A program made the translations under genes and the position numbers. Positions 1-18,000 of a stretch of 64,000 nt of DNA are shown in pieces. Under the pieces are notes generated by a model that was not told the origin of the DNA, made no database searches, and was given only the letters and a program-made list of their open reading frames with translations. Each line of letters opens with the position of its first letter. Position 1 is the first letter of the stretch. The stretch is from Cutibacterium avidum ATCC 25577. GTDB taxonomy: Bacteria; Actinomycetota; Actinomycetes; Propionibacteriales; Propionibacteriaceae. Location of the stretch: NCBI RefSeq assembly GCF_000227295.1, contig NZ_JH165054.1, positions 798,948 through 862,947 of the forward strand. The letters are read 5' to 3'.

Positions 1-3000
1 TCGTAGAAATGATCTTACGCGCCGCCCGAGCAGCCTCTTCTTCGGCAAATATCCAATGGATGGGCGTTGACCCCGCCGCCTTTAGCTGGCGCCGGGCCGT
101 TTCCCTGAGCTGTTTAGCAGCCGTACTCCACTTCGCGGGTATTAGGTTCGCATATCCGAGCCCCTTGGCATCAAGGAGTTCTCCATTCTGGAAACCGTCA
201 AACTCGACACCATTGACATAGTAGCCTTCAGGCCGACCCGTGATCTGCAACTCATAGGCTCGAGCATTCGCACTGCCGTGATTCTTCGATGGCCCCCACT
301 CCCCAGGCCCACCGAGACCACAACCGGTAGCGGTTCCGTTGTGTGCTAGGACCCAGCTGCTGTCGTCGGCTACGTAGTAGTTGTGCAGGTCTTTGACTGT
401 GACGTTGTAGACCGTGGCGATCTCGCCGGTGGCCTGGATCGACACGACCGTCACGAGACTACCAGTCTCGTCGTAGAGCTGGTCGCCGGCACGTAGATCC
501 TGGGCCTCGACCCAGCCCTTACCATCGACGTAGAACGGGTGCACGGCGGTGGTGGTCACCGTGCCCGACTCAGTCGCCACCTGCCAGGTCGCGACCTGGT
601 CATGAATGTAGGTGTCAGTGACCTCACCGGGCTCAGCCTGGCCCGTTTCCGGGTTGTACGCGGCGACCATGTCACCGGCAACAACATCTTCGATGTTCTT
701 CGAGGTGCCATCAGCCATCAACACCTGGGTACCGGCCACGAAACAGCCGTGCCGGGACACATCGGTCACCGTGGACAGGGCACCCGCGCCACCACCCACC
801 AGGCCCCCACCAGCAGCACCGACCGCCACAGCCTTGAGGCCGCCACGCAGGGTATGGGGGCCAGGGCCGGCCCAGTAGGCCCCAGCCTGGCCGATACCAC
901 CGTCGATAGCACCTTCCGTCAGACCAGAAACCACGTTCTTACCCAGACACGTCGCCGCCTTACCGGCGGCCCACTTGCCAGCTGCAGCCCCCAACCCGCC
1001 ACCGACCAGGCCGGCAGCACCCGAGACCGCAACCTCGCCCCACGTGACAGACCCCGTGGTAGCTTTCTGCGCGATCGTGTCGATACCAGCACCCAGCAAG
1101 ACACCGCCCAGCGGCCCGCCCACACCCGTGGCCATGAGCACACCACCGGCAGCAACCATCGCGCCACCAGCAACGTATTCCCAGTTGTTCTTCAACCAGC
1201 CACCAGCAGCATCCGCAGCCTTGGCCAACGGAGACCGGGCCGCATCGCGATAACCCTTAAGATCTTCATCAGTGAGCGGGCGAAGCCCTAACGGGTCAGA
1301 AAAATTAACCGGATCATTACCGGCAAACGCATACGGATTACCCGACCAGCCGGCACCAGCCACACCCGGCAACGGATCAGTCGACAAAAACCCACGCGTG
1401 GCCGGATCATAGACACGCGCCTGCATCCACTCCATGCCCTGGACCAGCAACGACCCCTGAGCAGACACCCCCACGTTCGTCGCGACCGCCCACGGATCCA
1501 TCGGGTTGCCGCCGTGGTCACGCGCCGACCACTGCGGCGGAAGCCACGAGGCGTCAGGGCCATCGACCATGCCAGTGACACCAGCCTCGGTAACCACCGA
1601 GCGCGCCCCGTACTGGACCAGCGTCGGCATGAACGACGACGAGTCCCACCACACGCTGTCCTGATCGACGCGAGCAAGCTCACCCAGCGCGTCGACCCAC
1701 AGCCGCTGTGTCTGCGCGGCGACCTTGTCGCCGTCATGGTTGATCTGCGTGATCGAATCCAGGAAGCCACGCGGATCCCACGTGAAACGACGCTCACCTG
1801 CCGGCCCCTGCTCGCGCACACGACGACCGGCATCGTCATAAGCGTAGGTGGTCGTGCCGTCAGAATTGGTCACCGACACCAGCTGCGAGGCGGCATCATA
1901 GGTGAACCGCGACACCGTCCCAGCCGCATCCTCGACAACCATCCGGCCGTTAGCGTCATACTCCCACGTGGTGACCAAGCCCTCGCTGGTCTGGGCCCGA
2001 ACCAGCTGACCGGTCTGGTCGTAGGAGTAGAAAGTCGTGATGCCGTCAGTCTTGTCTGCCACGACCCGACCGTTCTCGTCACGGGTGATCACCGACTCGC
2101 TGATGAAGCCGTTGCGCTCGACCCGCTGGCGCACCACGGCACCGTCGGCGTACTCCCATGAGGCATACAGCCCATCAGCGAAGACGCTGACGATGCGTCC
2201 CAGCGAATCACGGTCGATGACCACCCGACCCAGACCCTCCTGGATGAAGGCGCTGACCCGATTGTTCGCATCATACTCGTACGACGTGGACTGCCCATTC
2301 GGGCGGATCATGCAGGTACGACGACTATTCTGGTCATACTCCCAGCGCACCCCCTGGTCGCCGCGACCACGCCACAGCAGGTTACCGCGGACATCGAAGC
2401 GCAACTCGTGGCGGGCATCACCCTCCACGATCGTCGTCGTACGACCGACGAAATCACGGGTGGTGGCAGCCAGCAGCGTGTCATTGACCCACTCCTCGAC
2501 CTGGCGACCAGCCGAATCGTAGACCCACGACATCGACGCCCCCGCACCATCAACACGCCGAGTGACGCGGCCAGCCGCATCGTAGGAGTACCGCGTGACC
2601 CGCCCCAGCGGATCGGTGCTGGTCAGCAAACGACCCATCGGATCGTAGGTGTGCCGGGTCACCCCGCCCATCGGATCGGTGACCTCGCCGATGCGGCCCA
2701 GCTCATCGTAGGCGAAGTGGGTCACACCACCGGCGGCGTTAACAACCTCACTCATCTGGCCCGCCGCGTCGTAGCGGAAGCGACGCGTGCCGTACCAGGA
2801 ATCCTGCGACCACACGACCCGGCCCAGCTTGTCGTACTTCAACCGCGTCAAGCCGCGCCCTGGCTCCCGACGCGCCACCGCACGACCACACTCGTCGAAG
2901 GTTGTCGTGACGCGCTCACCAGTCGGCCAGACCTCACCCTCGATACGACCGTCGGCGTCGTAGATCATCTCGTAGCGGTCACCGCCAGTCGAGATCGTCG

Positions 3001-5821
3001 CAGCCCAGCGACCACACTCGTCGTACTCGTAACGGAAAGTCTGGCCCATCGGCTGGGTGACGGCTACAGGACGACCGGCAAGGTCACGCTCAATCGAGGT
3101 GACACCGCCCGCCTCGTCAATGATCTCGACAGGTAGACCCGCCAGGTCGTAGCGGGTCTTAGTGGACGTGGCATCGGCGTTGATATGGCAGACCATGCGC
3201 CCGAGACGATCATAGACCGCCTCTTCGCGCTTGCCGTCATCAAGGTAGGCGGTCGGCAGGGCCATCTGGTTAGTTTCATAGCGCCGCACACCGCCAGTGG
3301 CATCGGTGGTGGCCTTCAACGTGCCCTCAGCGTCGTAGGAGAACTGCCACACCCCACCAGAAGCATCCTTCATGGACTGCATCCGCGACATCGCGTCGTA
3401 GGAGAACTGCCAGGCCGAACCATCCGGCAACTCGACCCTGGTCAAGTTACCCAGATCGTCAACCCGACGCTCCACTCGCCGTCCCAGCTCGTCGATCGTG
3501 GCCGACTCCTCGCCAGCCTCGTCACGCTCAACCTCCACACGCCCACCCAGCGGATCGACCGTCGCCAACAGCCGGCCACCAGCGGAATATTCGAAACGCC
3601 ACACCGCGCCGTCGGGGTCGATGCGCTCGACGCACATGCCGCGCTCGTCGTAGCGGTAACGGGTGGTATGCCCCAGCGGCGTGATCGCCGCCACGACCCG
3701 GCCCTGTTCGTCGCGCTCCAACCGTGCGGTGTGACCCGCAGCATTCGTAGTAGAGACCAGGTCACCGTGGGCGTCGTAGCCCATCGTCAAGGTCACACCG
3801 GTGGGATCAACAACCTTGGTCAGCAGCGAACCGTCCCATTCCAGCACCGTGACCCCGCCGACCGGGTCAACGATACGCACCGGGTTCCGGTTATCGCCCT
3901 GATAGACCATCTCGGTCACCGAAACCTGATCGTCGTTGATGACGCGGACCTCGATGAGGCGGTCCTGCTCGTCAAAGTCCTGTTCGATGCGGGCACCCGA
4001 CACGGTCTGCTCAGCGATGACATGTCCCCGAGTGTCAAAACTACGCACCACGGTACGACCCTCACGGTCAGTGACCATGACCTGATTACCAAAGCGATCC
4101 CACGACGCCGACTGGCGGTGATCCTCAGCGTCAACGACGCCGACCAGGCGACCCTTACCATCGTGGACATAGGTGTTAGCGCGCGCACCGTCCTCGTCAC
4201 AGACCACAGTCACCCGGCCCCCCAAATAGGAGTAGCGCGAGAGGCGACCATGTGGGGAACGCTGAGTGACAACACGGCCCTGCCCGTCATAGGTGTTGTC
4301 CACCTCGACCACACCATCAGCATCAACGACACGGCACATCAAGCCTTGTTCGTTCCACTCGTACCGATGCGTAGCGGTATCACCAGTGGACTCAACCAGC
4401 CGTTCCTGCTCATCGTAGACATAGCCGACCCGGCGACCATCACTGGCCAATGCCTCGACAACGCGGCGACCATCCTGGCTCCACACCAGTTCGACTGCCC
4501 GACCGAACTCATGCTCCAGGCGAACGAGGCGATCCTCGGAATAAGTGAAGGCAACACGCGAGCCAGGACCCCGATCCTGGAAGACCGGCCGACCCGCCTG
4601 ACTGAACGCGAAACTCCCGCCATCATTGTCACGGATAAGGAAAGCCACGCCACCCATGCCAGTCGGCTGCTCAAGCCACAAATTCTCACACTGGGCGCGC
4701 CCCCAGCCCTCACCCATGCGACCAAACACGATATGACGCCCGTCAGCCTGGACCCAACGCGCCGACTCGTCCGTAACCACCAAGCGAGACTCAGCCAGGC
4801 TCGACCAGCCAGGACCAAAAGCCCCACACACCTGCGACATAGAGTTATACACACGGCCCCACTCAAGGGTCGCCGACCCACCAGTGAAACCCAAATCCAC
4901 CTGCGGCTCAACAAAATTCCCCGTCGCCGCATTAACCGGATCATCAGCAAACCCCGACGTCGGCTGGCCACCCATAGCGGTGGGAGGATCGACGACGATG
5001 TCGTCGCGAGACGACGAGATGCCGCTAGCCTGCAGAGCCGCATCCAGCGCACTATTGGGCACCGCCATGCCCGTGCCGCCAGCATTCACAAAAAGCTCGC
5101 GCACCCTGTCGGCCCACGTGATCTCGTCAACGTTCGCCTTGTTCCACGCGGTAAGAGCGGCGGCGACACTAGAAGCATCAAAAGTCACCCACGAGCAGGA
5201 TCGTGCAAAGGCGGCCAGCGCCGCATCTACCTTCCCCGGGTGGGGAAGCATCGAGTCATTCAGGCTGGCAGTCTGCCTGCTAAAGGACTGCAAATTGTCG
5301 GTGTTACCCGCAGATGTCCCATATGCACTACGTTGACCCTCAAGCGCCTTTCGCGGCGGCGGCGGCGTAGCCGGCGCCCAGGCCGTTGGACCGTCCAGCT
5401 TCTCAGAGAAGTTAGGCTCAGGCATGTCGTCAGTGTGGAGAACATCAGTGAAGAACTGGGCAAAGTCGCCTCGGTCCTTGCGACGCTGCGCCCAAGCGGC
5501 GGCGTCGGCACGGCGCTTGTTTTCGTCGCGGGCCGCCTGATCTAAGGTATCGATTTTAGTAGCCGCATCGTCGAGGTTGCTAGCGATCTCGTCGAGGTCA
5601 TTCAACTGCTGGGTCCCGTTGGCCTCGAAAAGTTCTGCGTAATACCCTTCGAAGCCCTCAGAACCCTTGTTACGCGCAGCTGCCCGTGCCCCCCGCTGGC
5701 CGCGGAGCGCCGATGCGGCAGCACGCAGCACCGAGCGAGTCTCAGACGCGACGCCAAAGTCATAGGCGACGGGCGACATGCCGGACAACTTGTCGAGATC
5801 GTAGTCGTCGGAATTGGCCAT
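1..5821 (-). CDS. RHS/YD-repeat polymorphic toxin with HINT and Tox-REase-5-like C-terminus (3' end off the window)
   Basis: The minus frame stays open from the ATG at 5821 to base 1 (1940 residues seen, stop outside). The start is preceded by AGAGG at 7 nt. Residues 1-110 are helical with FEG at 57-59, like a WXG100 turn; there is no signal peptide. About residues 290-1510 carry many YD/RHS repeats, closing with NPYAFAGNDPVNFSDPLGL. A Gly/Ala-rich stretch follows, then a HINT domain from Cys1693 (CFVAGTQV) to HN at 1827-1828 (VLAHN). The rest resembles Tox-REase-5: VEFDGF, GELLDAKG and a helical end. In such toxins the RHS shell encloses the toxin and HINT may release it. Its place behind the EssC-type ATPase gene suggests export by that system (inference). 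The exact toxin end and any immunity gene next to it lie outside the window. Confidence 0.9.
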   Translation of the reverse strand, partial: MANSDDYDLDKLSGMSPVAYDFGVASETRSVLRAAASALRGQRGARAAARNKGSEGFEGYYAELFEANGTQQLNDLDEIASNLDDAATKIDTLDQAARDENKRRADAAAWAQRRKDRGDFAQFFTDVLHTDDMPEPNFSEKLDGPTAWAPATPPPPRKALEGQRSAYGTSAGNTDNLQSFSRQTASLNDSMLPHPGKVDAALAAFARSCSWVTFDASSVAAALTAWNKANVDEITWADRVRELFVNAGGTGMAVPNSALDAALQASGISSSRDDIVVDPPTAMGGQPTSGFADDPVNAATGNFVEPQVDLGFTGGSATLEWGRVYNSMSQVCGAFGPGWSSLAESRLVVTDESARWVQADGRHIVFGRMGEGWGRAQCENLWLEQPTGMGGVAFLIRDNDGGSFAFSQAGRPVFQDRGPGSRVAFTYSEDRLVRLEHEFGRAVELVWSQDGRRVVEALASDGRRVGYVYDEQERLVESTGDTATHRYEWNEQGLMCRVVDADGVVEVDNTYDGQGRVVTQRSPHGRLSRYSYLGGRVTVVCDEDGARANTYVHDGKGRLVGVVDAEDHRQSASWDRFGNQVMVTDREGRTVVRSFDTRGHVIAEQTVSGARIEQDFDEQDRLIEVRVINDDQVSVTEMVYQGDNRNPVRIVDPVGGVTVLEWDGSLLTKVVDPTGVTLTMGYDAHGDLVSTTNAAGHTARLERDEQGRVVAAITPLGHTTRYRYDERGMCVERIDPDGAVWRFEYSAGGRLLATVDPLGGRVEVERDEAGEESATIDELGRRVERRVDDLGNLTRVELPDGSAWQFSYDAMSRMQSMKDASGGVWQFSYDAEGTLKATTDATGGVRRYETNQMALPTAYLDDGKREEAVYDRLGRMVCHINADATSTKTRYDLAGLPVEIIDEAGGVTSIERDLAGRPVAVTQPMGQTFRYEYDECGRWAATISTGGDRYEMIYDADGRIEGEVWPTGERVTTTFDECGRAVARREPGRGLTRLKYDKLGRVVWSQDSWYGTRRFRYDAAGQMSEVVNAAGGVTHFAYDELGRIGEVTDPMGGVTRHTYDPMGRLLTSTDPLGRVTRYSYDAAGRVTRRVDGAGASMSWVYDSAGRQVEEWVNDTLLAATTRDFVGRTTTIVEGDARHELRFDVRGNLLWRGRGDQGVRWEYDQNSRRTCMIRPNGQSTSYEYDANNRVSAFIQEGLGRVVIDRDSLGRIVSVFADGLYASWEYADGAVVRQRVERNGFISESVITRDENGRVVADKTDGITTFYSYDQTGQLVRAQTSEGLVTTWEYDANGRMVVEDAAGTVSRFTYDAASQLVSVTNSDGTTTYAYDDAGRRVREQGPAGERRFTWDPRGFLDSITQINHDGDKVAAQTQRLWVDALGELARVDQDSVWWDSSSFMPTLVQYGARSVVTEAGVTGMVDGPDASWLPPQWSARDHGGNPMDPWAVATNVGVSAQGSLLVQGMEWMQARVYDPATRGFLSTDPLPGVAGAGWSGNPYAFAGNDPVNFSDPLGLRPLTDEDLKGYRDAARSPLAKAADAAGGWLKNNWEYVAGGAMVAAGGVLMATGVGGPLGGVLLGAGIDTIAQKATTGSVTWGEVAVSGAAGLVGGGLGAAAGKWAAGKAATCLGKNVVSGLTEGAIDGGIGQAGAYWAGPGPHTLRGGLKAVAVGAAGGGLVGGGAGALSTVTDVSRHGCFVAGTQVLMADGTSKNIEDVVAGDMVAAYNPETGQAEPGEVTDTYIHDQVATWQVATESGTVTTTAVHPFYVDGKGWVEAQDLRAGDQLYDETGSLVTVVSIQATGEIATVYNVTVKDLHNYYVADDSSWVLAHNGTATGCGLGGPGEWGPSKNHGSANARAYELQITGRPEGYYVNGVEFDGFQNGELLDAKGLGYANLIPAKWSTAAKQLRETARRQLKAAGSTPIHWIFAEEEAARAARKIIST

Positions 5822-5925
5822 GGTTCAGCCTCTCGGGTGGGACACTAGAGTGTTGACGAAATACCAGGAAGCAATCTAACGCCTCAGAAGCTCACGCCAG
5901 CAGGCTTTCCCTGAGGTTATCGATG

Positions 5926-8900
5926 TCAGAAGGTGCTGCCGGTAGGCGACATCGCCTGGATAAGTGCCCCCTGGCCGCCCATGCATGCGTAGCCTCGGCC
6001 AGAACTGATCCGCACCGGGGCCGAGCGTGGGACCGTGATGCCCAAGAGTTCACCATCGTAGTCACGATTGGGGACCAGCAAGACCCCGCAACGAGACTTA
6101 CGCACGACCTTCGTCCAATGCGAGTACAGACTACGCAAGTCGTCTGAACGTCCCGCGGCGATCACATGGACGTGCGGCAGATTTGATCCCACCAGGTCCG
6201 TGATGGATTGATCTGCATCGTCGAAGCGCTCGGCGTCATCGATGAGCAGGACTAACGGCGCTGTCCGCATACGCGCGGCCGCCACCAGCGCCGGAATCTC
6301 GTCGGGGCCAACCGCCACGTTGTCAAGATCGGAAGAAGCGATGGGGGAACGCTTGGAGCCGATACCCCACACAGCCAGGTCGGTCCCTTCTGCCACCGCG
6401 CTCGTACGCAGCGACTCGGCAAGGCCCATCAGCAATGTCGACTTGCCCGATCGAGCGGGGCCGGCGATGAGCATGTGCTCACCTTCGTAGAGCTCGAGAT
6501 ACTGCGGGGCCATGTCTGCTTCCCGGAGACCGATAGGGATCCGCCAGGGCTCATCGCCCAAGTGCGCTACCGCGTCTAGTTCAGTCACGCTGACGTGGTC
6601 GGGCAGTTCCCGAACCACCTGCTCCTTATTGGGTGCGCCCCAGCGGTTCGCAATGACTGCCACCGCGTCAGACAGCGGAACAGAAGGGGTTGCGACGTGC
6701 GTCTGCAGCTTGGTCACACTAGGCACGCAGCGGCCGGGAACCGGCGACGGGGCCTCAGCGGGTTTCAGGCCACCTGTGCTGTAGTCATAGGGGTCAGCTA
6801 GGCGGAACATCCACTTCTGAGTGGTGACCTCGTCGATGGCGGAAGGGATAGCGCGTGCCCGGCTGGTCGTGATGACAAAGTGCATGTTGAGATCTGGGCC
6901 GTCAGCGTAGGCGCGGTACATCCCCTCCAGCAGAGCCATGCCTTCGAAATCTTGGTACTCGTCACGCAGGGCGGCCAACCCGTCGATGATGACAACCATG
7001 CGCCGGTACGGCCCCGAGGTGGCCCGACGGGTCTCAAGCTCCTGCCGGAGGAAGCGCAGGAGGCGCATCTGCTTCTCACGTCCGCCTGCTCCGGAGCCGA
7101 CATAGGCCGACGTATGGGGCAACTTCTCAAGGGGCTCGAGGTCGCGGGCACCCATGTCGAGCACGATCAGGTCAAGATCCTTCGGGGCGTAATGCTGCGC
7201 CAAGGTCAGCGCGACTGTCGCGCAGGCCGTCGTAGTGCCAAACCCCGGGATCCCGACCAGCATGAGGTTTCCACCGGCCATATCCCAACCACCAGGGATC
7301 TGGCGCTGGCGGTCCGGGTCGTCGGAGACCGCGAAGTTGACCTGCTCTCCAACGACCTCGCCCGCCGTTAGGAGGGGCGGGCGTCCCTCAATTGGCCCTG
7401 TCTCAAAGCCTGCTAGATCGACTCGTTCACCCAGCGCCTCGGGCCACACGGGCCGCGGTGGGGCGTAGCCAGCTTTCTCGTTCGCCTCGACAATCGCGTC
7501 GATCAGCAAGTCCAGATCGGACTTAGCGTCCTTGCGCGTGGGCTTGGGAGGGTTGGGGATCGGCACACCGTCGCGTAGCTCTTGGATCTCGATCGCGTTG
7601 TCCTGGTCTTTCTGCGCCGCACCTGTAACCAAGGCGGTCTGGACCGGAGTGATGTCGTCCTGGCCGAGCTTTACGTATGCGCGCCCCTTCTGCGCATTGG
7701 CGATAGCGGCAGCGTCGGGAACACCGATAACGTTGTTAGAGTCCTCGCGGCTTTGCACACGCAGTGCTACGCGAAGGTTGGTGTTAGCGAGGATGTCGTC
7801 GTTGACAACCCCGGCAGGGCGCTGAGTGGCAAGGATCATGTGGACGCCCAGAGTTCGCCCGACCGTGGCGACGCGCACCAGTGAACTCAGTACTTCCGGA
7901 AAATCCTTGGCCAGCATGGCGAACTCGTCGACGACGAGCAGAAGGCGCGGAAGCGGCTCTGAAGGCTTAGCCCGGATGTAAGCGTCGAGGTTGTCGACTC
8001 CCTCGCCAGCCGCAGCGAAAAGTCGCTGGCGATATTCCATTTCAGCTTCAAGGGCCCGTAAGGCACGGTTGGCCAACTGCTCGTCGAGGTTGGAGATCGT
8101 TCCGATGGTGTGCGGCAGGCGCTCACAGGCAGCGAAGGCCGCACCGCCCTTGAAGTCGATTAAGATGAAGGTGAGTTTCGTCGGCGCGTTGCAGGCTGCC
8201 AGGCCAGCTACCATTGATCGAAGGAACTCCGACTTGCCGGAACCCGTCGTTCCGCCAACCAGACCATGCGGGCCGTCCTTGACGATATCGAGGCTGTAGA
8301 CGCCGTTCTCGCCAACCCCCACCGGGGTGGATACTCCCCGGGAAGTCTCCCAGGCGTGGAGGATCTTGCCGGCCGTCGGGGCCTCCAGGTCGATGAGGGG
8401 CGGTAGTCGCACCAGGCTGGGTAGGGCGGCACCCGGAGTCTTGAGTTCAGGGTCTTCAAAACGCGCAAGGTCGAGGGCGCAGCGCTGGGCGCGTTCCAAG
8501 GTCACACCTGCGAGGACCACGTCGTCGACCTTCTTGAGATCATCCGGGCGGGTCACTGTCGCGGCTGCGTCATCAGCCACAGTCACGACGACCGTACAGG
8601 CCGCAGGAAGTTGATCTTCCGCCGCTGCGATAACAATCCCCGAAACCTCCCGGGACATCTCACGTGCGGAAGAAGCCTGCTTATTCATATGACGCCCAAA
8701 CCCCAGCAGCGATCGGGCGGGAGACTCGCGGCCCTCCGTGAGGACATCGGAGTCGAGGACAAGCAATACCGACATCGTCGGATGGGATTGGATCTCGTCA
8801 CGCAAGCCACGCAGCATTTCGTTGGAACGCTGGCGAGCGTGCGAAAACCAGCGATCAGCCGAGGCGTTGCCGAGGCGCCGCGTGTGCGGCAGCCATGTTG

Positions 8901-10227
8901 TCCACTCCCAATCGGTTTCACGGCCCTGGTCGCAGAAGACGCCGATCGTGACATCAGCCGGGCCAGAATGAACCGCGGCTTGGCACACGAGGCTGCGTGC
9001 AAGAGCGAGAGCTCCGTCACGGTCGCCGACGATGCCGACGACTCCGGCGTCGCTGAGGTTGACCTCGACAGGCGAGCACGGAATCATGCTGGCCGCAATG
9101 ACCTTGCGAACTCGCTCATCAGGCCTGCCTGCCCCAGAGCGTTCAACGGGCGGATCCCATGGCACAGCGCCCATCCCTGCGTGGAGACTAAGGAAGTCGT
9201 GGGCACCAAAGCGACGCTGCCACAACTGGGTGGTGGGGATCGCCGCAACACGAAGTGTCGTCGCTGGGTCTGGGCACTCGACGCGCCGCCGCGCGGCTTC
9301 TTCGGATGCAGCCTTGGCCAGGTCCCGACGCAGCGTCTCGAGGGCGAGCGCAAAGCGCTTGTCCTCAGACTTGCGTTCCTGCTTACGGCGCGACTTCTGC
9401 TCATACCACGAGCCGACGGCCATCACCGGGCTCAGAACCGCAAACATGGCGTACATGGGGTTTTTCATCACCACGACCATGGCGACCGCCATGACCAGCG
9501 GCACGACCACCGCAATGATGTTGAACTTTGCGCCGTCAGGGATTTCCTTGGGCTCGGGGCAGACAATCGGATCCGGCCGTGGAGGCTGGCCAGGGCGCGG
9601 AGGCCGGTTAAACGGCGCCGTACCTGCTGGGGTGACATTGTGCAGCGATCCAGCGCGCGGCGCGGGATTCTCCTGAAGGCTCTCGCGCAACAGCAGGGTC
9701 GAGCCGCCCACGGCCAACGTGGTATCGACGGCGACAGACTGCCCTGCGGATGAGTCCACCTTAAGTCCGTCGGCCTCCGAGGAATACGCAAAGGTGCCGT
9801 TCGTAGAACCCTGATCGATGACTCGAAGACCAACATCGTCACGCTGGATGTGGACGTGATCCCATGAAACGCTGGCGGAAGCGATCGAGAGGTCGGCATG
9901 AGGAGAACGGCCGATGGCCAACGGTCGGTCAACGGGAAGCTGCAAGACACTGCCAGCCTCCATGCCTCCAGCCTGGGTGATACTCCACCCCTTCAGAGGA
10001 AGCGCCGGACGCAAGGGTTCGCGAGAGATACGCATGCCATCGAGCAACTCCAGCCGAGCAAGCAAACTGTCGGCGCGGACCTCTCGGTCGTCAAGCCACA
10101 GAGTACTATCCGCAGCCGGACGTGTGCCGGTCACATTCTCGACCAAGTCAGCCAGGGTAGCCTTCGCGGAGAAGCGAGCCACATCTAGGTCGCGCTGGAC
10201 TGAGTCGAGATTGAACTGAAGGCGCAC
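5926..10227 (-). CDS. essC: FHA-domain EssC/EccC-type FtsK-SpoIIIE ATPase
   Basis: Motor ATPase expected to recognise and export WXG100-type substrates through a type VII-like secretion system at the membrane. I start it at GTG 10227, which has GGAG 5 nt upstream; an earlier ATG at 10356 would overlap the previous gene and adds unconserved residues. The 1433-residue protein has a ubiquitin-like N-terminus, an FHA domain (IGRSPHADL, QGSTNGTF) and two close hydrophobic segments (IIAVVVPLVMAVAMVVV and the next stretch). Three ATPase modules follow: D1 with GGTTGSGKSEF and LLLVVDEFAML, D2 with a degenerate Walker A (GIPGFGTTT, no Lys), and D3 with GPARSGKST and LVLLIDDAE. The FHA-first layout is of EssC type rather than mycobacterial EccC. 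The RHS toxin gene begins 104 nt downstream. Confidence 0.9.
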   Translation of the reverse strand: MRLQFNLDSVQRDLDVARFSAKATLADLVENVTGTRPAADSTLWLDDREVRADSLLARLELLDGMRISREPLRPALPLKGWSITQAGGMEAGSVLQLPVDRPLAIGRSPHADLSIASASVSWDHVHIQRDDVGLRVIDQGSTNGTFAYSSEADGLKVDSSAGQSVAVDTTLAVGGSTLLLRESLQENPAPRAGSLHNVTPAGTAPFNRPPRPGQPPRPDPIVCPEPKEIPDGAKFNIIAVVVPLVMAVAMVVVMKNPMYAMFAVLSPVMAVGSWYEQKSRRKQERKSEDKRFALALETLRRDLAKAASEEAARRRVECPDPATTLRVAAIPTTQLWQRRFGAHDFLSLHAGMGAVPWDPPVERSGAGRPDERVRKVIAASMIPCSPVEVNLSDAGVVGIVGDRDGALALARSLVCQAAVHSGPADVTIGVFCDQGRETDWEWTTWLPHTRRLGNASADRWFSHARQRSNEMLRGLRDEIQSHPTMSVLLVLDSDVLTEGRESPARSLLGFGRHMNKQASSAREMSREVSGIVIAAAEDQLPAACTVVVTVADDAAATVTRPDDLKKVDDVVLAGVTLERAQRCALDLARFEDPELKTPGAALPSLVRLPPLIDLEAPTAGKILHAWETSRGVSTPVGVGENGVYSLDIVKDGPHGLVGGTTGSGKSEFLRSMVAGLAACNAPTKLTFILIDFKGGAAFAACERLPHTIGTISNLDEQLANRALRALEAEMEYRQRLFAAAGEGVDNLDAYIRAKPSEPLPRLLLVVDEFAMLAKDFPEVLSSLVRVATVGRTLGVHMILATQRPAGVVNDDILANTNLRVALRVQSREDSNNVIGVPDAAAIANAQKGRAYVKLGQDDITPVQTALVTGAAQKDQDNAIEIQELRDGVPIPNPPKPTRKDAKSDLDLLIDAIVEANEKAGYAPPRPVWPEALGERVDLAGFETGPIEGRPPLLTAGEVVGEQVNFAVSDDPDRQRQIPGGWDMAGGNLMLVGIPGFGTTTACATVALTLAQHYAPKDLDLIVLDMGARDLEPLEKLPHTSAYVGSGAGGREKQMRLLRFLRQELETRRATSGPYRRMVVIIDGLAALRDEYQDFEGMALLEGMYRAYADGPDLNMHFVITTSRARAIPSAIDEVTTQKWMFRLADPYDYSTGGLKPAEAPSPVPGRCVPSVTKLQTHVATPSVPLSDAVAVIANRWGAPNKEQVVRELPDHVSVTELDAVAHLGDEPWRIPIGLREADMAPQYLELYEGEHMLIAGPARSGKSTLLMGLAESLRTSAVAEGTDLAVWGIGSKRSPIASSDLDNVAVGPDEIPALVAAARMRTAPLVLLIDDAERFDDADQSITDLVGSNLPHVHVIAAGRSDDLRSLYSHWTKVVRKSRCGVLLVPNRDYDGELLGITVPRSAPVRISSGRGYACMGGQGALIQAMSPTGSTF

Positions 10228-10291: not shown

Positions 10292-11566
10292 CTATGGCCG
10301 AGCAGGGAACCACACAAGCGGAGCCACCCCCGACGCCGGAGCTGGCCGTAGCCCAAGTGTGTCTTGTCCGGAACTGAGGGGAACTACGCGGTCCTTCGGG
10401 AACGCCGCCGGGCGCGTGAAGTCCAGCGGGCTCCCAGTAATTCCCTGGTCATATCCAACGGTCATGTTGGCAAGACTGGCCGACACTGCCCCAGAGTCCT
10501 TCACCTGTGCCTTCTCCACTGCGCGAACCAACGCCACGACGGCGTCGTGGCTACGGCTATCGGCTACTGCGGCGACAGTGCTGAAGGAGTCATCCCCTAC
10601 CGGGTTCTTGGCACCGGGGTCGGCAGCCAGCAGACGCAGTCCGGCGAGATAAGCTGACATGGATCGGGCCGCTTCGTCGGTGCCCAGGCTCTGTGCGTCA
10701 CCGCTCGCCGCTCCGACGGAGAAGAGCTCGGTGGAAGCAGTGCCATTGGCCTTCACAAGCCCCTGGTAGAAGCCGGGGCTAAGCGCCTCAGGCGTCAGCA
10801 CGACGGGAACGTGGGAGCCGACGCCCTGGATTAGTGCGACGGTCTGGCCCAACGTGAGAGCCGGGCCCGCAGCGACGATCCCCTGCGGCTTACTCCGGCC
10901 GAGAGTCTTTGATAGGACCTTGGCAGAAACGCTGCGGTCGATCTTCGGGTCGAGCGGCAGCATTCGGGCACCCTCGATCCCCTGCGGGATCTTCCCGCCG
11001 GCATTGATAGTCAGCAGAGGATCCAACTTTTGCTGCGTGATCAAGTTGGCCATCACCGCAGCGATGTCCTCGTCACTCGGCCCGGTGCTCCACGCGCCGG
11101 TCGGCAACGACGCTACATCGGAGTAGTACGGCAAGAGCACTGGGGTGCCGCTGTGAGCCGCAGCCTTCACACCCGCAAGGAGATGATCGCCGGTTGATGC
11201 ATATACGATGCCGCTGACGCGGGCCTTGCGAGCCTTCGCGACAGCCTCCGCCGAGCCTGACGCGGTCCCGTGATCGTCGAAAACCGTCAGACTGATCTTT
11301 GTCCCCGACATCGCGAACCGATGGATGGCAACTTCGGCGCCAGCGGCAGCATCGCGCCACTCGCTGCCTTGCCCGGGATCAGAGGACAGCGTCAAGATCA
11401 GCGCAATGCTCGTGTCCTTCGGCACGTCGGCATGCAACTGAACAGGTACTGAAGCGGCCGGTGGTTGCGGCTTTTCCCGGTGCTGCATGCTCCACACCCC
11501 CCAACCGGTTACGGCGACAACAAGAACTGCTGCTGCGATGAGAAGGGCGTAAAGACGCTTACTCAC
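10292..11566 (-). CDS. Membrane-anchored periplasmic-binding-protein-like protein
   Basis: This 424-residue protein has one N-terminal hydrophobic segment (LYALLIAAAVLVVAVTGWGV, residues 5-24) and an extracytoplasmic part resembling the LivJ/Peripla_BP_6 fold: an opening strand (TSIALILTLSSDP), repeated Rossmann-like segments (GIVYASTGDHLL, GTPVLLPYYSD) and a second lobe. LivJ-type proteins bind amino acids or other small ligands for ABC import or sensing. No permease or ATPase of an ABC importer is nearby. The gene overlaps the upstream coiled-coil gene by 4 nt and ends 64 nt before essC, so it is probably co-transcribed. I infer a sensor or structural part of the secretion locus rather than an importer; the ligand is unknown. 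Confidence 0.7.
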   Translation of the reverse strand: MSKRLYALLIAAAVLVVAVTGWGVWSMQHREKPQPPAASVPVQLHADVPKDTSIALILTLSSDPGQGSEWRDAAAGAEVAIHRFAMSGTKISLTVFDDHGTASGSAEAVAKARKARVSGIVYASTGDHLLAGVKAAAHSGTPVLLPYYSDVASLPTGAWSTGPSDEDIAAVMANLITQQKLDPLLTINAGGKIPQGIEGARMLPLDPKIDRSVSAKVLSKTLGRSKPQGIVAAGPALTLGQTVALIQGVGSHVPVVLTPEALSPGFYQGLVKANGTASTELFSVGAASGDAQSLGTDEAARSMSAYLAGLRLLAADPGAKNPVGDDSFSTVAAVADSRSHDAVVALVRAVEKAQVKDSGAVSASLANMTVGYDQGITGSPLDFTRPAAFPKDRVVPLSSGQDTLGLRPAPASGVAPLVWFPARP

Positions 11567-14478
11567 TTGGTGGGTCCGATCGTGAAGTTGTAAACCGTTT
11601 GGGCGTCGGCGCCAGCAGGAACCTTGGCACGGAATGCGGGAAGCTCGCCCTGAGACTCCGTAGCCGCCTTCAACTGGGCCTGACGCAACAGAAGTGTATC
11701 GATGTCGCGGCCTCGCACCGAGGCATACTCCGTCGCCGCCCCCGAGGCCATGGCTAACTGGTAGTCGGCAGAGCCGACCTTGGCTGAACTAGTAGCCATG
11801 GCACCGAGCAGACCGCGACCCTTGACCTTGCGATCGCCGAGGTCCAGCAACACCTTGTTCAGGTCAGCCTGAAGTAGAGCACCAGCGCCAGACAAGTCAC
11901 GCGAAGAACGCGAGAAACTTGACGCGATGTCAGCCAGATTGGTTTCGACCATCTCGTCAATGGCTTCTCCCAACTTGGCACTGGATCCAGCCAGTTGGGC
12001 GTCTTCCTCCCTAATACTCTTTGTTCCGTTGCGGGAGATAGTCACGCTGGCGGAGTTGAGGCCCTTAACCGACGCAACGAACATGCTGCTGACGCCTGAT
12101 GCATCAACCAAGGTGTCCTCGACCACGCGTCGCTGAGTCTGGGTCATGGACTTGGCAAGGTCCGTGCGTGCGTTTGCCGTGGCGCGACTGAAGCCTTCCG
12201 TAATTGCGGCGCTCAGACCTTCCTGTTGCGCCTGGAGCGCCGTCAGACGGGGGCCCATGTGATCCCGGCCTTCAGCCAGGCTGGCAACCGCCGCCTTCAG
12301 TTCCTGACTATACGAATCGCTGAAGGTATGGCCTTCTTTCAACGCAGCGATGCCATCGTCGATCCACTTGATGCCGAGGTTAAAGGCGTGATAAGTGGTG
12401 GGATCGTCATCCGGAGCATCTACCACAGTCCAGTTGATGACCTCTTGCCATGCTGCAGACTGCTTCTCGAGCAGGCTAATGGCCGCATCAATCCCTGCCA
12501 GCTGATCGGTCAAGCGCGTCCGCATGTCATCGGTGGCCTTCCACTTGGCCGGGCGCTGGGACGCGCGGGTCCTCCGGCCAGTGCACGTCGTCCCTGTCGA
12601 CATCGCGCGCAACTGGTCGCGCGTGTAGGGGGCAGAGGGGGCTGCCGGAGCCGGGGTTGGGGTTGTCGGAGTCGGGATTGGGGTTGTCGGAGCTGGGGTC
12701 GGATCAGGGCTAGCCGAGGGGTCCGGGGTGGCCGACGCCGAGGCGCTGGGGCTGCTCGTTAGGCTGGCAGTGGGCCCCAACTCGCAGACGCCGTCGGCGA
12801 TGGCCTCCATTTGAGCCAGCATGCCGGTGGCGGGGTCGGCGATCTCGGTCCTCTGGGCTCGCAGCCTTGCCAATGCCACATCCACGTCGGACTTTTGACC
12901 TTCGGCGTGGCGGTGGAGGGTAGTCATGCCATCCTCAATGCGGCCTTTCGCGGTTCGAAGGTCGTACAACGCTTCAGCGTAGTGACCATCCATTACTCCA
13001 CCATGACCAGCGAGGCTCTCCAAGTCCTTCACACCACTGTTAAGTTCTTGAAAGCCGGTTATCGCATCATTTACGGCCGTTGGGTCCAGGCTAGCGACGA
13101 GTTTCTGCCCCTCCTCGTTGATCTTGAGCAGCGAGTTGTCCATCGTCATTTGGGTCATGCGCAGGTCACACGTGACCGAGCCCGACGCACGAGGGTCCAT
13201 GCACTGCTCCACAGTCGGGGTAGCCGGACCGACGGTCAGCAACAGTTGTCTGACCACCTGCGCCCGGCATTGATCAGTTGCGGTCGCATAGCCGTTCAAC
13301 TGGCTAGAAACCTGCATGAGGTTGCCGTAGACGCTCGTGGCGGCGTGAGGAGTTGCCACGGTCGACGCGCAGCCCTTCGAGTCGACACTCGGGGTGGGCG
13401 GCGTAGCTGTCGTATCGCCGAGCATGGCGTCCATCATGGCCACCGTCGACTGCATCTTGGAGAGCAGCATAGAGCGGCTGCTATTGAGAGTCGTAGACAA
13501 CTGCTGATTGAGGCTCTTGAGTTGCTGGTCAAGGTACTTGACCGATGCCGCGACAGACGTCGTCGACCTGTTCAACTCGGCGATGGACTTGTCGCCCAGT
13601 GTCTTGGACGAGGCATCAAGATTAGAGCGAACATCGCCGATGGTCTTAGACGAGCGCGCCAGAACTTCATTGACCTGGCCGATGAGTTCGATGGTCTTGC
13701 GTTGCAACTCAATCTCGGAACCGGTGTCCTGATTAAACGACGAGTCGAGCAGAGAGGCGACAGAAGGATCAGTGATTAGGCCAGGCTGGACCGAAACGTT
13801 GAAGGTGGGGGTCTCAAAGTCCTTGACGTCGGCGACCATGCGCAGAGTGGCGTTGGCATTCAACTGTGGCGGCGCCAGGATGGTCGCCCACTGCACGGTG
13901 GCCATTCCCCGCGAGTTGCGGCTAAGAAGCCCGTTTGTAACTTTGGCGTCGGTGAGGTCACCTGTGACAACGCCACCCGCAGGAGTGTTGTTCAAGACAG
14001 TGGAAGCGACAACTGTCATTGGAGCGCCAATGAGTGCAGTACGGGTTTTACGGACGCCTGCGACGTCGTAGGCGACCTCGCGGGGTTTGACAGTGAGGTT
14101 CTCTACGGCCAGATCAATCTCGACTCGGCCACTGTAGCCCTTGAGTTCGTCAAGGTTGGTGCCCGACCTATCCTTCGTTCGATAGGCGGTCTGAACGCGT
14201 ATTGGCAGGTCACCTACGACCTCGCGTGGAGGGAAGGACGTTTTTACCGTGTTGGCCTTGGCAGGATCATCGGCAACCGACACGGTGGTGCTGCCGATGG
14301 TCTGGATCGACGCATCAGGCCCCATTCCCACCTCAACTGACTGCAGGACTCTGTGGACCGGCCCTTGACCCACATCCTTGGCACCGCACCCAGTACCTGC
14401 GGCCATCAACGCGATTGCTACAGCACCTGCGACAAGTCTGCTGCGTAGCGATGATCGTCCAGAGTCCTGTGAAGTCAT
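11563..14478 (-). CDS. Large exported coiled-coil protein, lipoprotein candidate, of the secretion locus
   Basis: 971 residues. The start ATG 14478 has AAGGG upstream. The N-terminus is a signal sequence (VAGAVAIALMAAGTGCGAK) with a Cys that could be lipidated, although the lipobox is not classical because Leu at -3 is absent. About residues 255-330 are predicted coiled coil with heptad-like LNQQL and VLARSS repeats. A Pro/Ser/Thr-rich linker lies near 605-650, and further long helices fill the C-terminal third. No enzyme motif is visible. Its long helical ectodomain recalls EsaA/YhgE-type proteins of Gram-positive type VII systems, but the multiple membrane spans of EsaA are missing, so this is analogy only. 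It is the first gene of the minus-strand group and overlaps the next by 4 nt. Confidence 0.65.
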   Translation of the reverse strand: MTSQDSGRSSLRSRLVAGAVAIALMAAGTGCGAKDVGQGPVHRVLQSVEVGMGPDASIQTIGSTTVSVADDPAKANTVKTSFPPREVVGDLPIRVQTAYRTKDRSGTNLDELKGYSGRVEIDLAVENLTVKPREVAYDVAGVRKTRTALIGAPMTVVASTVLNNTPAGGVVTGDLTDAKVTNGLLSRNSRGMATVQWATILAPPQLNANATLRMVADVKDFETPTFNVSVQPGLITDPSVASLLDSSFNQDTGSEIELQRKTIELIGQVNEVLARSSKTIGDVRSNLDASSKTLGDKSIAELNRSTTSVAASVKYLDQQLKSLNQQLSTTLNSSRSMLLSKMQSTVAMMDAMLGDTTATPPTPSVDSKGCASTVATPHAATSVYGNLMQVSSQLNGYATATDQCRAQVVRQLLLTVGPATPTVEQCMDPRASGSVTCDLRMTQMTMDNSLLKINEEGQKLVASLDPTAVNDAITGFQELNSGVKDLESLAGHGGVMDGHYAEALYDLRTAKGRIEDGMTTLHRHAEGQKSDVDVALARLRAQRTEIADPATGMLAQMEAIADGVCELGPTASLTSSPSASASATPDPSASPDPTPAPTTPIPTPTTPTPAPAAPSAPYTRDQLRAMSTGTTCTGRRTRASQRPAKWKATDDMRTRLTDQLAGIDAAISLLEKQSAAWQEVINWTVVDAPDDDPTTYHAFNLGIKWIDDGIAALKEGHTFSDSYSQELKAAVASLAEGRDHMGPRLTALQAQQEGLSAAITEGFSRATANARTDLAKSMTQTQRRVVEDTLVDASGVSSMFVASVKGLNSASVTISRNGTKSIREEDAQLAGSSAKLGEAIDEMVETNLADIASSFSRSSRDLSGAGALLQADLNKVLLDLGDRKVKGRGLLGAMATSSAKVGSADYQLAMASGAATEYASVRGRDIDTLLLRQAQLKAATESQGELPAFRAKVPAGADAQTVYNFTIGPTK

Positions 14479-14600
14479 ACCGGTCCCTTCCAGATGCCAA
14501 AATCCCCGCTAAAGCATAGGCCCTGGAGGTTCACCGCCACACGATAGTCTGAGGCGCGACAGGATTTCGGGCCGGCATCGGCATCGTGAGGATGAAGAAC
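14479..14600. promoter_or_regulatory. Divergent promoter region of the secretion locus
   Basis: About 120 bases separate the start of the minus-strand secretion operon (14478) from the plus-strand kinase gene. Both transcription units must begin here or run through it. I see no clear consensus -35/-10 pair and no operator repeat, so this is assigned from gene layout only. Confidence 0.4.
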
Positions 14601-16562
14601 ATGGAGTTCACTGCCCCTTTGGGGGCCAACTACCGCCTCGGGGACACACTGGGCCGTGGTGCGGCTGGTGAGGTACGGCTAGCCCAAGACGCCCGCACTG
14701 GCGAGGTGTTGGCGGCGAAACTCTTACACCGCGAACATGCGCAGGACCCTAAGTTGGTTGAGCGCTTTGTCCGAGAACGCTCGCTGCTCATGAACCTTCA
14801 TCACCCGAACGTCGTCGCGATCCACGACCTTGTCGTCGAGGGCGAGCAGTTGGCCATCGTGATGGATTACATGGACGGCGGCTCCCTGCGCGATGTTCTA
14901 CAGCATCGTCGAACCCTTCCCCCGGCACTCGCTCTGGTTGTCATGTCGCAGGTCTTTGACGCCATGGCAGCAGCTCACGCTCAAGGCATAATTCATCGCG
15001 ACATCAAGCCGGACAACGTGCTGTTGGAGAAGGGCTGGGAAGATCTCCCCGGCGACGCAATCAAGGTCAGCGACTTTGGTATTGCTAGCATCCTGACTGC
15101 TCGTGTTCGCACTACCACAGGCCTCCTCGGGACGCCGGAGTACATGGCACCTGAGATGATAACGACGGGCGAAGGTGGCGCAGCAGCAGACGTCTACGCG
15201 GCTGGCGTCATGCTCTACGAGTTACTGGGGGGTCGCACCCCATTCGCCGGGCCCGGAACAGACTTTGCCGTCGCATACCGGCATGTGAGTGCCCTCGTGC
15301 CGCCCTTGCCGGTTTCTGAGGAGGTGGCGTCTCTTCTTACCGGGCTCCTTGACAAGGCGCCCGCCAACCGTCCCACCGCCAGTCAGGCTGCGGCGGCGCT
15401 GCGGAACGCTTCGGCCCACTGCCAGAACCAACCTGCGCTAACGCCGATAAGTGGCCCCGAAGACTTCGTGATGGAAGAACGGCCAGCAACCGCAGTTCGT
15501 GGCATCGTCACGGAGCGGCCCGCTGAGTCGCATGCGCCCATCACAATGGGAGAGGCACCCGATGTCGGACGCGCCGAGGGTGCAACGATGCTTCGGTCTA
15601 TGACCCCAACCCGAGCGCCGGAGCCCATCGCTGACCAGCCAGAACCCGCCCTGGTACTCGAGGACAACGAAGCCCCTTGGTACAAGAAGCCACAGCAACT
15701 CATCAGCGTGATTCTCGGGACTGTGCTGGTGGTAGGTGGTCTTGTGTGGCTGTCAATGACCATGAACAATCATGGCGACAAGCCGACCAACACGGTCAGC
15801 GCGAAGGCGGCTTCCGTCGATACCACGCTACCCAGCGGCCTGACCGTGCAGCGGTCCGCTGAGTCCAATGAATCTGGTGGGGCCGTCCTCACTTTTACCT
15901 TCTCCGCTCAGAAGGCTGAACTGCACGGACCGATTCTCCAAGTCATCGGACCTTTAGAACAGGGCAAGCCCTGCCCGACCCTGTCATGGCAGGGAGATGT
16001 CAAGGCGACCCCCCACAAGGCGTCAACTACTGGCATCCAGGCCACGTGCGGCTGGAGTATCGATGATCTCACCATCCATAAAGGGGCCAGCGTCACCGTG
16101 AAGGCGGTGATCCTACCGGAGAATGGCTCAGCTCAGGACCTCCAAAAGTGGCTCGATGATCAGGCTACGGCTACGCAGAAAGCGATCACTGACGCGGAAA
16201 CCAAGTCGGTGGCCTACCCTGTCCAGCGCCTCACTGATATCCAATTGATCGTCCCGAAGCGCGCGGTTGGAGGCGAGACGATCCGCATCAGTCTAGTGCC
16301 TGTGTGGCCGAGCGGACCTGACCAGTTGAACGTGCTCTATCGCAGTCCCGCAATGGGGGAGGCCTCGACGATGCTCCAGACGGTGGGCGGCGAGAACACT
16401 GTTCGATTTGTGGATGGATGTGGCGGGGCTGTCAACGTCTCCGCCGATGGCCTCGTCGTCACAGCGGTCAACCCGAATCCCAAGTGTACGGTGCGAGCCA
16501 GCGTGGGTAACTTCACTGACCTCACGTCGCCTGAGTTTGCGATCGTCCCTCGAGGCGGCTAA
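14601..16562 (+). CDS. Transmembrane Ser/Thr protein kinase (PknB-like)
   Basis: A eukaryotic-type kinase with extracellular domain, about 653 residues. I prefer ATG 14601 (GAGG at 9 nt) over GTG 14586 or ATG 14592. The kinase domain (about 12-270) shows the Gly loop (LGRGAAGEV), AAKLL lysine, the catalytic HRDIKPDN, DFGIAS and a GTPEYMAPE activation segment, so it looks active. An acidic/Pro linker leads to one membrane segment (LISVILGTVLVVGGLVWL, near 367-384) and an exported C-terminal part of about 270 residues that lacks recognisable PASTA repeats. It is divergent from the secretion operon and followed by the WXG100 gene. Because EssC here carries an FHA domain, which binds phosphothreonine, the kinase is a candidate regulator of secretion (inference). 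Confidence 0.88.
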   Translation: MEFTAPLGANYRLGDTLGRGAAGEVRLAQDARTGEVLAAKLLHREHAQDPKLVERFVRERSLLMNLHHPNVVAIHDLVVEGEQLAIVMDYMDGGSLRDVLQHRRTLPPALALVVMSQVFDAMAAAHAQGIIHRDIKPDNVLLEKGWEDLPGDAIKVSDFGIASILTARVRTTTGLLGTPEYMAPEMITTGEGGAAADVYAAGVMLYELLGGRTPFAGPGTDFAVAYRHVSALVPPLPVSEEVASLLTGLLDKAPANRPTASQAAAALRNASAHCQNQPALTPISGPEDFVMEERPATAVRGIVTERPAESHAPITMGEAPDVGRAEGATMLRSMTPTRAPEPIADQPEPALVLEDNEAPWYKKPQQLISVILGTVLVVGGLVWLSMTMNNHGDKPTNTVSAKAASVDTTLPSGLTVQRSAESNESGGAVLTFTFSAQKAELHGPILQVIGPLEQGKPCPTLSWQGDVKATPHKASTTGIQATCGWSIDDLTIHKGASVTVKAVILPENGSAQDLQKWLDDQATATQKAITDAETKSVAYPVQRLTDIQLIVPKRAVGGETIRISLVPVWPSGPDQLNVLYRSPAMGEASTMLQTVGGENTVRFVDGCGGAVNVSADGLVVTAVNPNPKCTVRASVGNFTDLTSPEFAIVPRGG

Positions 16563-16713
16563 CGGGTAGTTATTGGGGAAGGCGAACCGGTTGAACCATC
16601 TCCCTGATAACGTCCTGCTTGTCTCACGCAGTTGGCTTTCCTACCGGGTAGGCCCTCCGCTAGACGTACATCATTAGCCCCGGCCCCACGGCCATCTAAC
16701 CCAGGAGCAAAGA

Positions 16714-16995
16714 ATGTCCCGAGTTCTTTCTACGGAAGAGGCCAAGTCGGCCATCAGCCAGATCCAGAGAATCATCCAGGGTGGTCTCAACGACCAGATC
16801 CAGGCGCTCGACGTCCAGGGCCAGATCCTGAGCCAGCCGAATGTCTGGGACGGCCCCCTGGCCCAGCAGTTCCGCTCAGAGACGTGGCCGCAGACCAAGT
16901 CCGCCCTTGACAAGGCCCAGCAGGAACTCGAGGAGTTGCGTGCCCAGTTGGAGAAGATCTCTCGCGACATCTTCACTGCTGGCGGCGGCGCCTGA
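16714..16995 (+). CDS. WXG100 family (EsxA-like) secreted protein
   Basis: 93 residues, the usual length of WXG100 proteins. The central turn is Trp-Asp-Gly in NVWDGPLAQQF, between two amphipathic helices; a C-terminal helix ends in AGGGA. No signal peptide, as expected for type VII substrates that are exported as helical hairpins. GGAG stands 8 nt before ATG 16714. It lies about 150 nt after the kinase gene and within the locus with the EssC-type ATPase, which supports its role as exported substrate or carrier. The last residues contain no clear YxxxD/E motif. Confidence 0.88.
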   Translation: MSRVLSTEEAKSAISQIQRIIQGGLNDQIQALDVQGQILSQPNVWDGPLAQQFRSETWPQTKSALDKAQQELEELRAQLEKISRDIFTAGGGA

Positions 16996-17169
16996 GCGAC
17001 GCACCTCACTCTACTCGGCGTCGGCGGCCCGCTGGACCGTCGACGCCTTTTGTTATTGCCCATCATCGGCCCTTGGACCGCCTGTACGTCTGGCGCCAAT
17101 CACGGATGGACACGTGCTCTGCCGTACAAGGAGTTCCAAGCCCGACGATGAGATGGACCTTGCGTAGCT

Positions 17170-17208
17170 GAGCCCTCACACTACCCCCTGGGAACAGTGT
17201 GAGGGCTC
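17170..17208 (+). terminator. Hairpin terminator after the WXG100 gene
   Basis: A perfect 13-bp stem (17170-17182 with 17196-17208) with a 13-nt loop, 174 nt after the WXG100 stop. No long T-run follows. Apart from this hairpin I see no gene in 16996-17433. Confidence 0.7.
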
Positions 17209-17433
17209 AACTCCTATGCGCGACTTGATCGAGTATGCCCACCCAATACTGCGGGCGTTATCCACCATTGCACTCGCAATATCGACCCGCGGATTCTCGC
17301 GCCTATGAGCTGCAGATCGCAGGCCGGGCTGACGGCTGCTGAGGCGGCGCGTCGGTTGGTTCCTATGAAGATTAAGATCAGTCATATCCTTGTATTCGAT
17401 AATCACGTTTCCGTGAAAAGGAGATGATCTTTG

Positions 17434-18000
17434 ATGTGGTCACTAGAGTGTGCTTGGCGGCCATCTTCTCCAGGGATGGAGGATGTTGCTGCGCGCGTGG
17501 TTGAGTGGTGTAGCCAGGTGGGTGGTTTTTATCCTGAGTTGAGCGAATGGCGATTCACCGCAGACTCGAAACGGGCGGCGTTAGCCACACAATCGGCTAC
17601 CGAGCATGAGTTGGTCCGAAGTCTCGTGGCCGACGGGGGTATCGCCTCTATCTGGGCCCCGCAGGGTCATCTCCGCGTGGACGTCAGCGCGGATGAGTAC
17701 GCCAAGCAGAAGAATTTGTTTCGCCTTGTGGCAATGGGGAGATCACCGGCCAATGTGGACGAGAATGATGAGGATGTGGCCATGATGATGACAGAGATGG
17801 CCTGTCGCATTTTTTCGCCTGAGTATGTCAACTGCGGGAACGCGAAAGCGGAGCCGATGATTGACGACGATGCTCTTGTGTCAGCGGTGAACTATGCGCG
17901 TCGAGACATATATGATTCGTATCCAGATTTTGTGCGGGCGGCGCGGGTCATACGTACCACAGCGGAGGGAGTGTTCTTCGCTCGCCCCGAGGAGGACTAG
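17434..18000 (+). CDS. Possible Imm52-like immunity protein
   Basis: 188 residues from ATG 17434, with AAGGAG about 10 nt upstream (a TTG one codon earlier is possible). No signal peptide or membrane segment. The N-terminal pattern, with WRPSSPGMEDVAARVVEW then FYPELSEW, resembles the Imm52 family, which from memory is the partner family of Tox-REase-5 toxins; this match is by eye only. The C-terminus is helical with acidic residues. Base composition is less GC-rich than the neighbours, as is common for toxin-immunity genes. It stands at the far end of the secretion locus from the RHS toxin, on the other strand. Its cognate could be that toxin or an earlier one that has been replaced. Confidence 0.45.
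   Translation: MWSLECAWRPSSPGMEDVAARVVEWCSQVGGFYPELSEWRFTADSKRAALATQSATEHELVRSLVADGGIASIWAPQGHLRVDVSADEYAKQKNLFRLVAMGRSPANVDENDEDVAMMMTEMACRIFSPEYVNCGNAKAEPMIDDDALVSAVNYARRDIYDSYPDFVRAARVIRTTAEGVFFARPEED

Follow-up and report, generated by a model that had tools for sequence, protein, structure and literature searches.

Type VII secretion systems (T7SSs) were catalogued in 2024 into the subtypes T7SSa to T7SSj (Garrett, Higginson and Palmer, 2024; PMC11217815). Among the types described in the main text of that catalogue, the nearest to the locus reported here is T7SSd, the Olsenella/Bifidobacterium type, which is restricted to Actinomycetota and combines an FHA-bearing EssC ATPase with a phosphothreonine-binding motif, one WXG100 protein, a membrane Ser/Thr kinase and the components TsdH and TsdI. 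The phosphothreonine-binding FHA residues are reported there for T7SSd and T7SSe, unlike T7SSb. An association between RHS toxins and T7SSs was proposed in 2012 (Zhang et al., PMC3482391), a case was described for Listeria EssC8 (Bowran et al., 2023; PMC10327511), and RHS genes are noted near T7SSc and T7SSd loci, for example beside the T7SSd of O. uli (main text of PMC11217815). The RHS-T7SS link is therefore not new, and the view in the original prediction that RHS toxins are usually tied to type VI or Sec routes is out of date. The main text of PMC11217815 has no mention of Cutibacterium or of names in Propionibacteri-, and the openly accessible literature yielded no description of a T7SS in Cutibacterium, or of a LivJ-like or p971 component (see below) in any T7SS.

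The locus lies in a window of 64,000 nucleotides, the whole stretch of DNA analyzed, from the 2.55 Mb genome of Cutibacterium avidum ATCC 25577. It probably encodes a self-contained minimal T7SS, a subtype of its own, that would export RHS polymorphic toxins against neighboring bacteria.

Genomic organization

All genes that had been named from the sequence alone (FHA-EssC, WXG100 protein, Ser/Thr kinase, LivJ-like protein, 971-residue protein and RHS-HINT-nuclease) were confirmed in place, in two divergent units parted by a 107-nt gap. The features were as follows.

2-5821, minus strand: RHS toxin whose gene continues past the window edge, with an N-terminal FxG helical region, DUF6531, RHS repeats, core-associated domain, PT-HINT and Tox-REase-5 nuclease
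41-262, minus strand: Tox-REase-5 nuclease tip of the RHS protein (E 1e-6)
338-721, minus strand: PT-HINT autoprocessing domain of the RHS protein (E 7e-22)
5507-5821, minus strand: WXG100-like N-terminal region of the RHS protein, a proposed export signal, with the FxG motif FEGYYAELF at residue 57 and no Pfam match
5926-10227, minus strand: EssC/TsxC-type FtsK ATPase of 1433 aa, with FHA domain, membrane segment and three ATPase domains; corrected GTG start
9676-9993, minus strand: EssC FHA domain with the conserved phosphothreonine-binding residues GR, SxxH and NG
10012-10227, minus strand: probable ubiquitin-like (beta-grasp) N-terminal domain of EssC, EsaB/YukD-like, from a model and weak sequence matches
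10292-11566, minus strand: LivJ-fold substrate-binding-like protein, membrane-anchored, a lipoprotein in many relatives
11563-14478, minus strand: p971, an exported protein of 971 aa, with an N-terminal beta-sandwich closed by a C-terminal strand and a long helical arm between; 4-nt overlap with the LivJ-like gene
14479-14585, no strand: divergent intergenic region of 107 nt, by its coordinates the likely site of the promoters of both units
14586-16562, plus strand: transmembrane Ser/Thr kinase, TsxD-like, with intact catalytic motifs and a conserved extracytoplasmic domain
16714-16995, plus strand: WXG100 protein, TsxA-like, with the conserved C-terminus DIFTAGGG
17431-18000, plus strand: putative orphan immunity gene (189 aa), a paralogue of immunity-type genes beside the RHS gene

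As predicted, EccB, EccD, EccE, mycosin, EssA and EssB were all absent from the locus. Neither EssA nor EsaA had a Pfam match there, and no phosphatase gene was seen in it. Base composition did not delimit a sharp foreign island. Elsewhere in the window, an ORF at 35799-36707 (plus strand) read like an IS3-type, integrase-like transposase.

The EssC ATPase

The 1476-aa ORF initially called for EssC was too long; translation really begins with the GTG at 10227, which is preceded by AGAAGGAG and aligns with the starts of relatives. The protein matched TIGR03928 (1e-149) and TIGR03924 (4e-116), both below the equivalog cut-offs, as well as the solved YukB (5e-95) and EccC5 (3e-66). It is thus a membrane FtsK ATPase of the EccC/EssC type with several ATPase domains, as expected of a T7SS. 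Among 48 actinobacterial EssC proteins placed in a tree, those that came from loci carrying the gene set, 20 in number, formed a single clade (support 100, inner branch 0.62). Within the tree, the window protein and its sister from genome G002 clustered with large-genome members of the family, while those of G003, C. namnetense and C. porci clustered with Schaalia and strain TAE3-ERU4 and were only 42% identical to the window EssC. Since the Cutibacterium copies are split between two groups, the genus appears to have acquired the system on two or more occasions, and the plasmid copies described below fit this.

The FHA residues GR, SxxH and NG were kept in nearly all relatives. The 70 residues preceding the FHA domain were modeled as strand-strand-helix-strand-strand-strand with a confidence of ~90. 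Their profile retrieved mostly ubiquitin-like folds from the PDB, SAMP2 first, none being significant alone (best E 0.01), and YukD, with query letters agreeing with PDB entries 9qks and 2bps, aligned collinearly (pairwise E 0.0028, probability 11%). For the N-terminus of EssC, the VIA list consisted of FHA domains and did not probe the ubiquitin-like part. Model and weak matches together indicate that EssC probably carries a ubiquitin-like domain fused before the FHA domain. The same domain occurred in several other actinobacterial EssC proteins and was missing from the T7SSd-like EssC, and no YukD-family gene (PF08817) was present in the genome. The fused domain may account for the missing EsaB/YukD, whose function has likely been joined to the EssC motor.

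The features shared with T7SSd (WXG100 protein, FHA-ATPase, membrane kinase, restriction to Actinomycetota and, in O. uli, an Rhs neighbor) would also suit a divergent T7SSd member in which p971 is a shortened TsdI, but we consider this improbable. The T7SSd-like EssC, a reference picked by gene content and not by name, fell on a very long branch outside the window's clade, so that the two ATPases probably belong to separate clades. According to the main text of PMC11217815, TsdI is very large and Sec-exported, with Ig-like domains and a C-terminal transmembrane helix, whereas no p971 in the loci read had such a helix and p971 showed no similarity to the TsdI-like protein of 1320 aa from the T7SSd-like locus. 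No gene for TsdH, a small single-TM protein, lay among the module genes of the window, of locus L047 or of the annotated Rothia plasmid; a LivJ-like protein is added instead. Finally, T7SSd is described in the same text as having no ubiquitin-like protein, in contrast to the domain that is probably fused to the window EssC. The T7SSd-like locus, from another family (L112; L138:13580-17542), also contained an LXG-like protein, a PPM-phosphatase-like gene and a kinase, and its TsdI-resembling 1320-aa protein had a signal peptide and a C-terminal TM.

WXG100 proteins, kinase and RHS toxins

The catalytic motifs of the kinase, HRDIKPDN and DFG, were intact. The WXG100 assignment held for the family, in which the WDG motif was invariant and 11 of 13 members matched the WXG100 model, while the window protein itself scored 19.0 bits, below the Pfam cut-off; the family thus supplies the EsxA/TsxA-type WXG100 protein expected of a T7SS. 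Every checked genome with the window's EssC clade encoded a WXG100 protein. Where it was missing from the EssC locus, a genome-wide search located it elsewhere (5/5), and all nine remote copies directly adjoined an RHS gene. No WXG100 protein was found in the four Cutibacterium genomes devoid of the system or in the seven genomes that pair p971-LivJ with another EssC.

A WXG-like N-terminus had been proposed for the RHS protein. In 16 of the 17 N-termini read, the motif of this helical WXG100-like region was FxG and not WxG; it lay in the first ~70 residues, with the position and surroundings of a WXG turn. Since the remote WXG100 copies stand next to RHS genes in 9/9 cases, the RHS protein is the likely substrate of the system. 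This adjacency and the FxG N-termini thus suggest that the RHS-WXG100 pair is the unit of ammunition. RHS proteins might also leave by Sec or some other route, being linked to EssC by neighborhood only while the T7SS exports just the WXG100 protein, as other Gram-positive RHS proteins do use Sec (PMC10327511). Such an exit is unlikely, given that the RHS proteins read had the FxG helical N-terminus and no signal-peptide-like one, and that a WXG100 gene adjoined RHS in all nine remote islands.

Conservation and distribution

Profile models placed p971 and the LivJ-like gene side by side in 28/28 loci, often with a 4-nt overlap. EssC was found beside the pair in 26/28, the two remaining loci being contig ends, and the kinase in 23/28, the WXG100 gene in 14/28 and the RHS gene in 11/28. 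Conservation of the non-ATPase genes with essC had been set beforehand as the test of the original prediction, and these counts bear it out. Searches with p971, as a single sequence and as alignments, found the set in five of nine Cutibacterium genomes; across the family, up to ten genera had it (25/197 genomes at E 0.001, of which three were weak). A scan of genome contigs with the window p971 alone retrieved nothing, and an EssC alignment was needed instead; this added two Actinomycetaceae, Schaalia canis and strain TAE3-ERU4. The LivJ-like search added a sister family (f2), and tblastn two plasmids of Rothia terrae. Hosts overall were thus Propionibacteriales, Actinomycetaceae and Rothia terrae through its plasmids. 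In TAE3-ERU4, the genes were ordered p971-LivJ-EssC-kinase-WXG100-RHS on a single strand, with three similar small ORFs coming next, and Rothia plasmid p2 (53.8 kb) carried all six genes together.

Public (RefSeq) annotation of p971 and the LivJ-like protein on the Rothia plasmid is hypothetical. In RefSeq, the WXG100 partner at L151:11239-11520 (NZ_CP062961.1) is labeled as a pyrophosphorylase.

The p971-LivJ pair also stood beside a clearly different EssC type (L133-L136 of f2, and L064-L066), and is thus not exclusive to the window's EssC clade. The f2 loci were ordered p971-LivJ-kinase-EssC, and the window's WXG100 family was missing from both sets of loci. These arrangements represent a second flavor of the system. 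That the pair is a separate nutrient- or stress-sensing operon merely neighboring essC, as its occurrence with the other EssC type and the usual service of LIVBP-fold proteins to ABC importers might suggest, is very unlikely, because no ABC permease or ATPase genes were seen at the annotated loci (window, L047 and Rothia plasmid), EssC adjoins the pair so regularly, even on a plasmid, and the pair was absent from Cutibacterium genomes that lack the system.

The p971 matches in G008 were rejected, not being module relatives, as were weak phylum-wide matches to proteins that resembled p971 in the N-terminal beta domain and differed elsewhere. This beta domain, for which no covering Pfam family was found, recurs in exported proteins of ~650-840 aa (L117:7045-11045, L119, L120 and L121), and the one in L117 immediately follows a multi-TM MmpL-like protein or transporter. 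A canonical Peripla_BP_6 protein lay near EssC at L094:13336-14616 (plus strand) in an unrelated actinobacterial family with no p971, either by chance or as a further variant.

p971 and the LivJ-like protein

The N-terminus of p971 was of the Sec type, so that export is predicted. The protein had been taken for a lipoprotein candidate, but the lipobox was not kept across relatives and is not a family feature; many LivJ-like proteins have one instead. The model gave a confident beta-sandwich at residues 43-232 and a C-terminal strand at 958-967. Residues 39-969 matched mu-homology-like beta-sandwiches (Z ~10, ~165-175 aligned residues, rmsd 3-5), with the C-terminal strand aligning inside the same domain as the N-terminal sandwich. 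The ~700 residues between were helical and poorly resolved, the model being of low confidence outside the beta domain, and sequence searches of the PDB returned generic coiled coils only. No structural relation to EsaA emerged from this partly low-confidence model. Most simply read, p971 would be a domain close to the membrane with an extended helical arm, a shape that would fit a wall-spanning role such as that proposed for EsaA and TsdI, although homology to these two proteins did not emerge.

The anchoring predicted for the LivJ-like protein was found as an N-terminal membrane anchor in Cutibacterium, with a lipobox in its place in many relatives. Peripla_BP families matched about half of the family, Peripla_BP_6 matching 9 of 20 members (best 6e-15), and matches to LIVBP structures (9e-7) identify a periplasmic-binding fold.

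Toxin tips and immunity genes

The RHS proteins combined a conserved core, a variable C-terminal toxin and adjacent putative immunity genes, and thus belong to the polymorphic toxins. Those of the sister species C. porci and C. namnetense were ~67-85% identical up to residue 1650, beyond which identity was 47% and 31%. The 189-aa protein at 17431-18000 was paralogous to L001:11334-11903, outside the window, and the end of an apparent third copy lay after the RHS gene, in a region of which 1.7 kb is masked; no Pfam family was found for the immunity proteins. Upstream of the window were orphan HINT-tail and toxin-tip cassettes at L001:7691-8263 (minus strand), with a PT-HINT match, and at L001:10392-11063 (minus strand), with a HINT-like tail ending in the same VLAHN motif. 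These cassettes are a reservoir for tip exchange. Small immunity-like genes also occurred among the orphan cassettes upstream of the RHS gene. Together, the RHS gene, orphan cassettes and small genes form the usual polymorphic-toxin layout.

Proposed mechanism

The gene set and its conservation, the EssC clade, the WXG100-RHS linkage, the kinase and FHA motifs and the polymorphic C-termini can be read directly from the sequences. We infer from them how secretion, assembly of the complex, sensing and gating, killing and protection might proceed, and which substrate is carried. The core would consist of EssC, as motor and channel with built-in ubiquitin-like and FHA domains, the WXG100 export partner, the membrane kinase, p971 and the LivJ-like protein. 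The N-terminal FxG hairpin of the RHS protein would pair with the WXG100 protein and be passed to EssC, which would export both by way of an envelope complex built from p971 and the LivJ-like protein. In this complex, the beta-sandwich of p971 would sit near the membrane and its arm of ~700 residues would do the wall-spanning job of EsaA or TsdI. The LivJ-like protein could sense an extracellular ligand and the kinase relay this signal to EssC by way of its phosphothreonine-binding FHA domain, so that, as proposed here, the toxin would be fired only on cue. The HINT domain would then free the nuclease tip, and the 189-aa immunity proteins would shield kin. A more specific version is offered tentatively: a ligand-gated T7SS subtype in which the LivJ-fold receptor and p971 arm act through the kinase on EssC, five genes suffice, and the RHS-WXG islands in genome and plasmids are interchangeable ammunition.

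The system occurs in skin commensals and in other habitats, where killing machines directed against Gram-positive neighbors are poorly known, and its five conserved genes stay together in several actinobacterial families and even on a plasmid. With a set this small and portable, the minimal T7SS envelope complex therefore becomes testable. A ubiquitin-like domain fused to EssC would hint at the site of action of the enigmatic EsaB/YukD subunit, and the trio of kinase, FHA domain and binding protein makes signal-gated release of T7SS toxins testable as well.

Comparison with known systems

The gene set fits none of the T7SSa-j sets given in the main text of PMC11217815, which supports the predicted undescribed minimal T7SS-like locus coupled to RHS and, as far as that text shows, makes it a new T7SS subtype. 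T7SSd has TsdH and TsdI where the window has p971 and the LivJ-like protein. The EccB, EccD, EccE and mycosin of T7SSa (ESX) were missing from the window locus and from the six-gene set of the Rothia plasmid. T7SSb of Bacillota, including Listeria EssC8 with LrhA (PMC10327511), shares EssC, WXG100, an Rhs gene beside essC and orphan immunity genes, but the window locus had no EssA, EssB pseudokinase, stand-alone EsaB or recognizable EsaA, and has an active-type kinase instead. Neither the stand-alone ubiquitin-like TsxB of T7SSc/e/f/j nor the PPM phosphatase component of T7SSc/e/f was present in the loci examined.

The H1 type VI threonine phosphorylation pathway (PpkA-Fha1 with TagQ-T; PMC4348357) is alike in that a kinase and an FHA protein govern toxin secretion, with further components upstream in signal transduction. 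It is a different machine, however, and no phosphatase gene was seen here, so the likeness is an analogy of working and not one of membership. With the RHS polymorphic toxins of Zhang et al. (2012; PMC3482391), the window protein shares the RHS core, HINT, Tox-REase-5, exchangeable tip and neighboring immunity genes, and differs from them in its FxG T7SS-type N-terminus and dedicated WXG100 protein.
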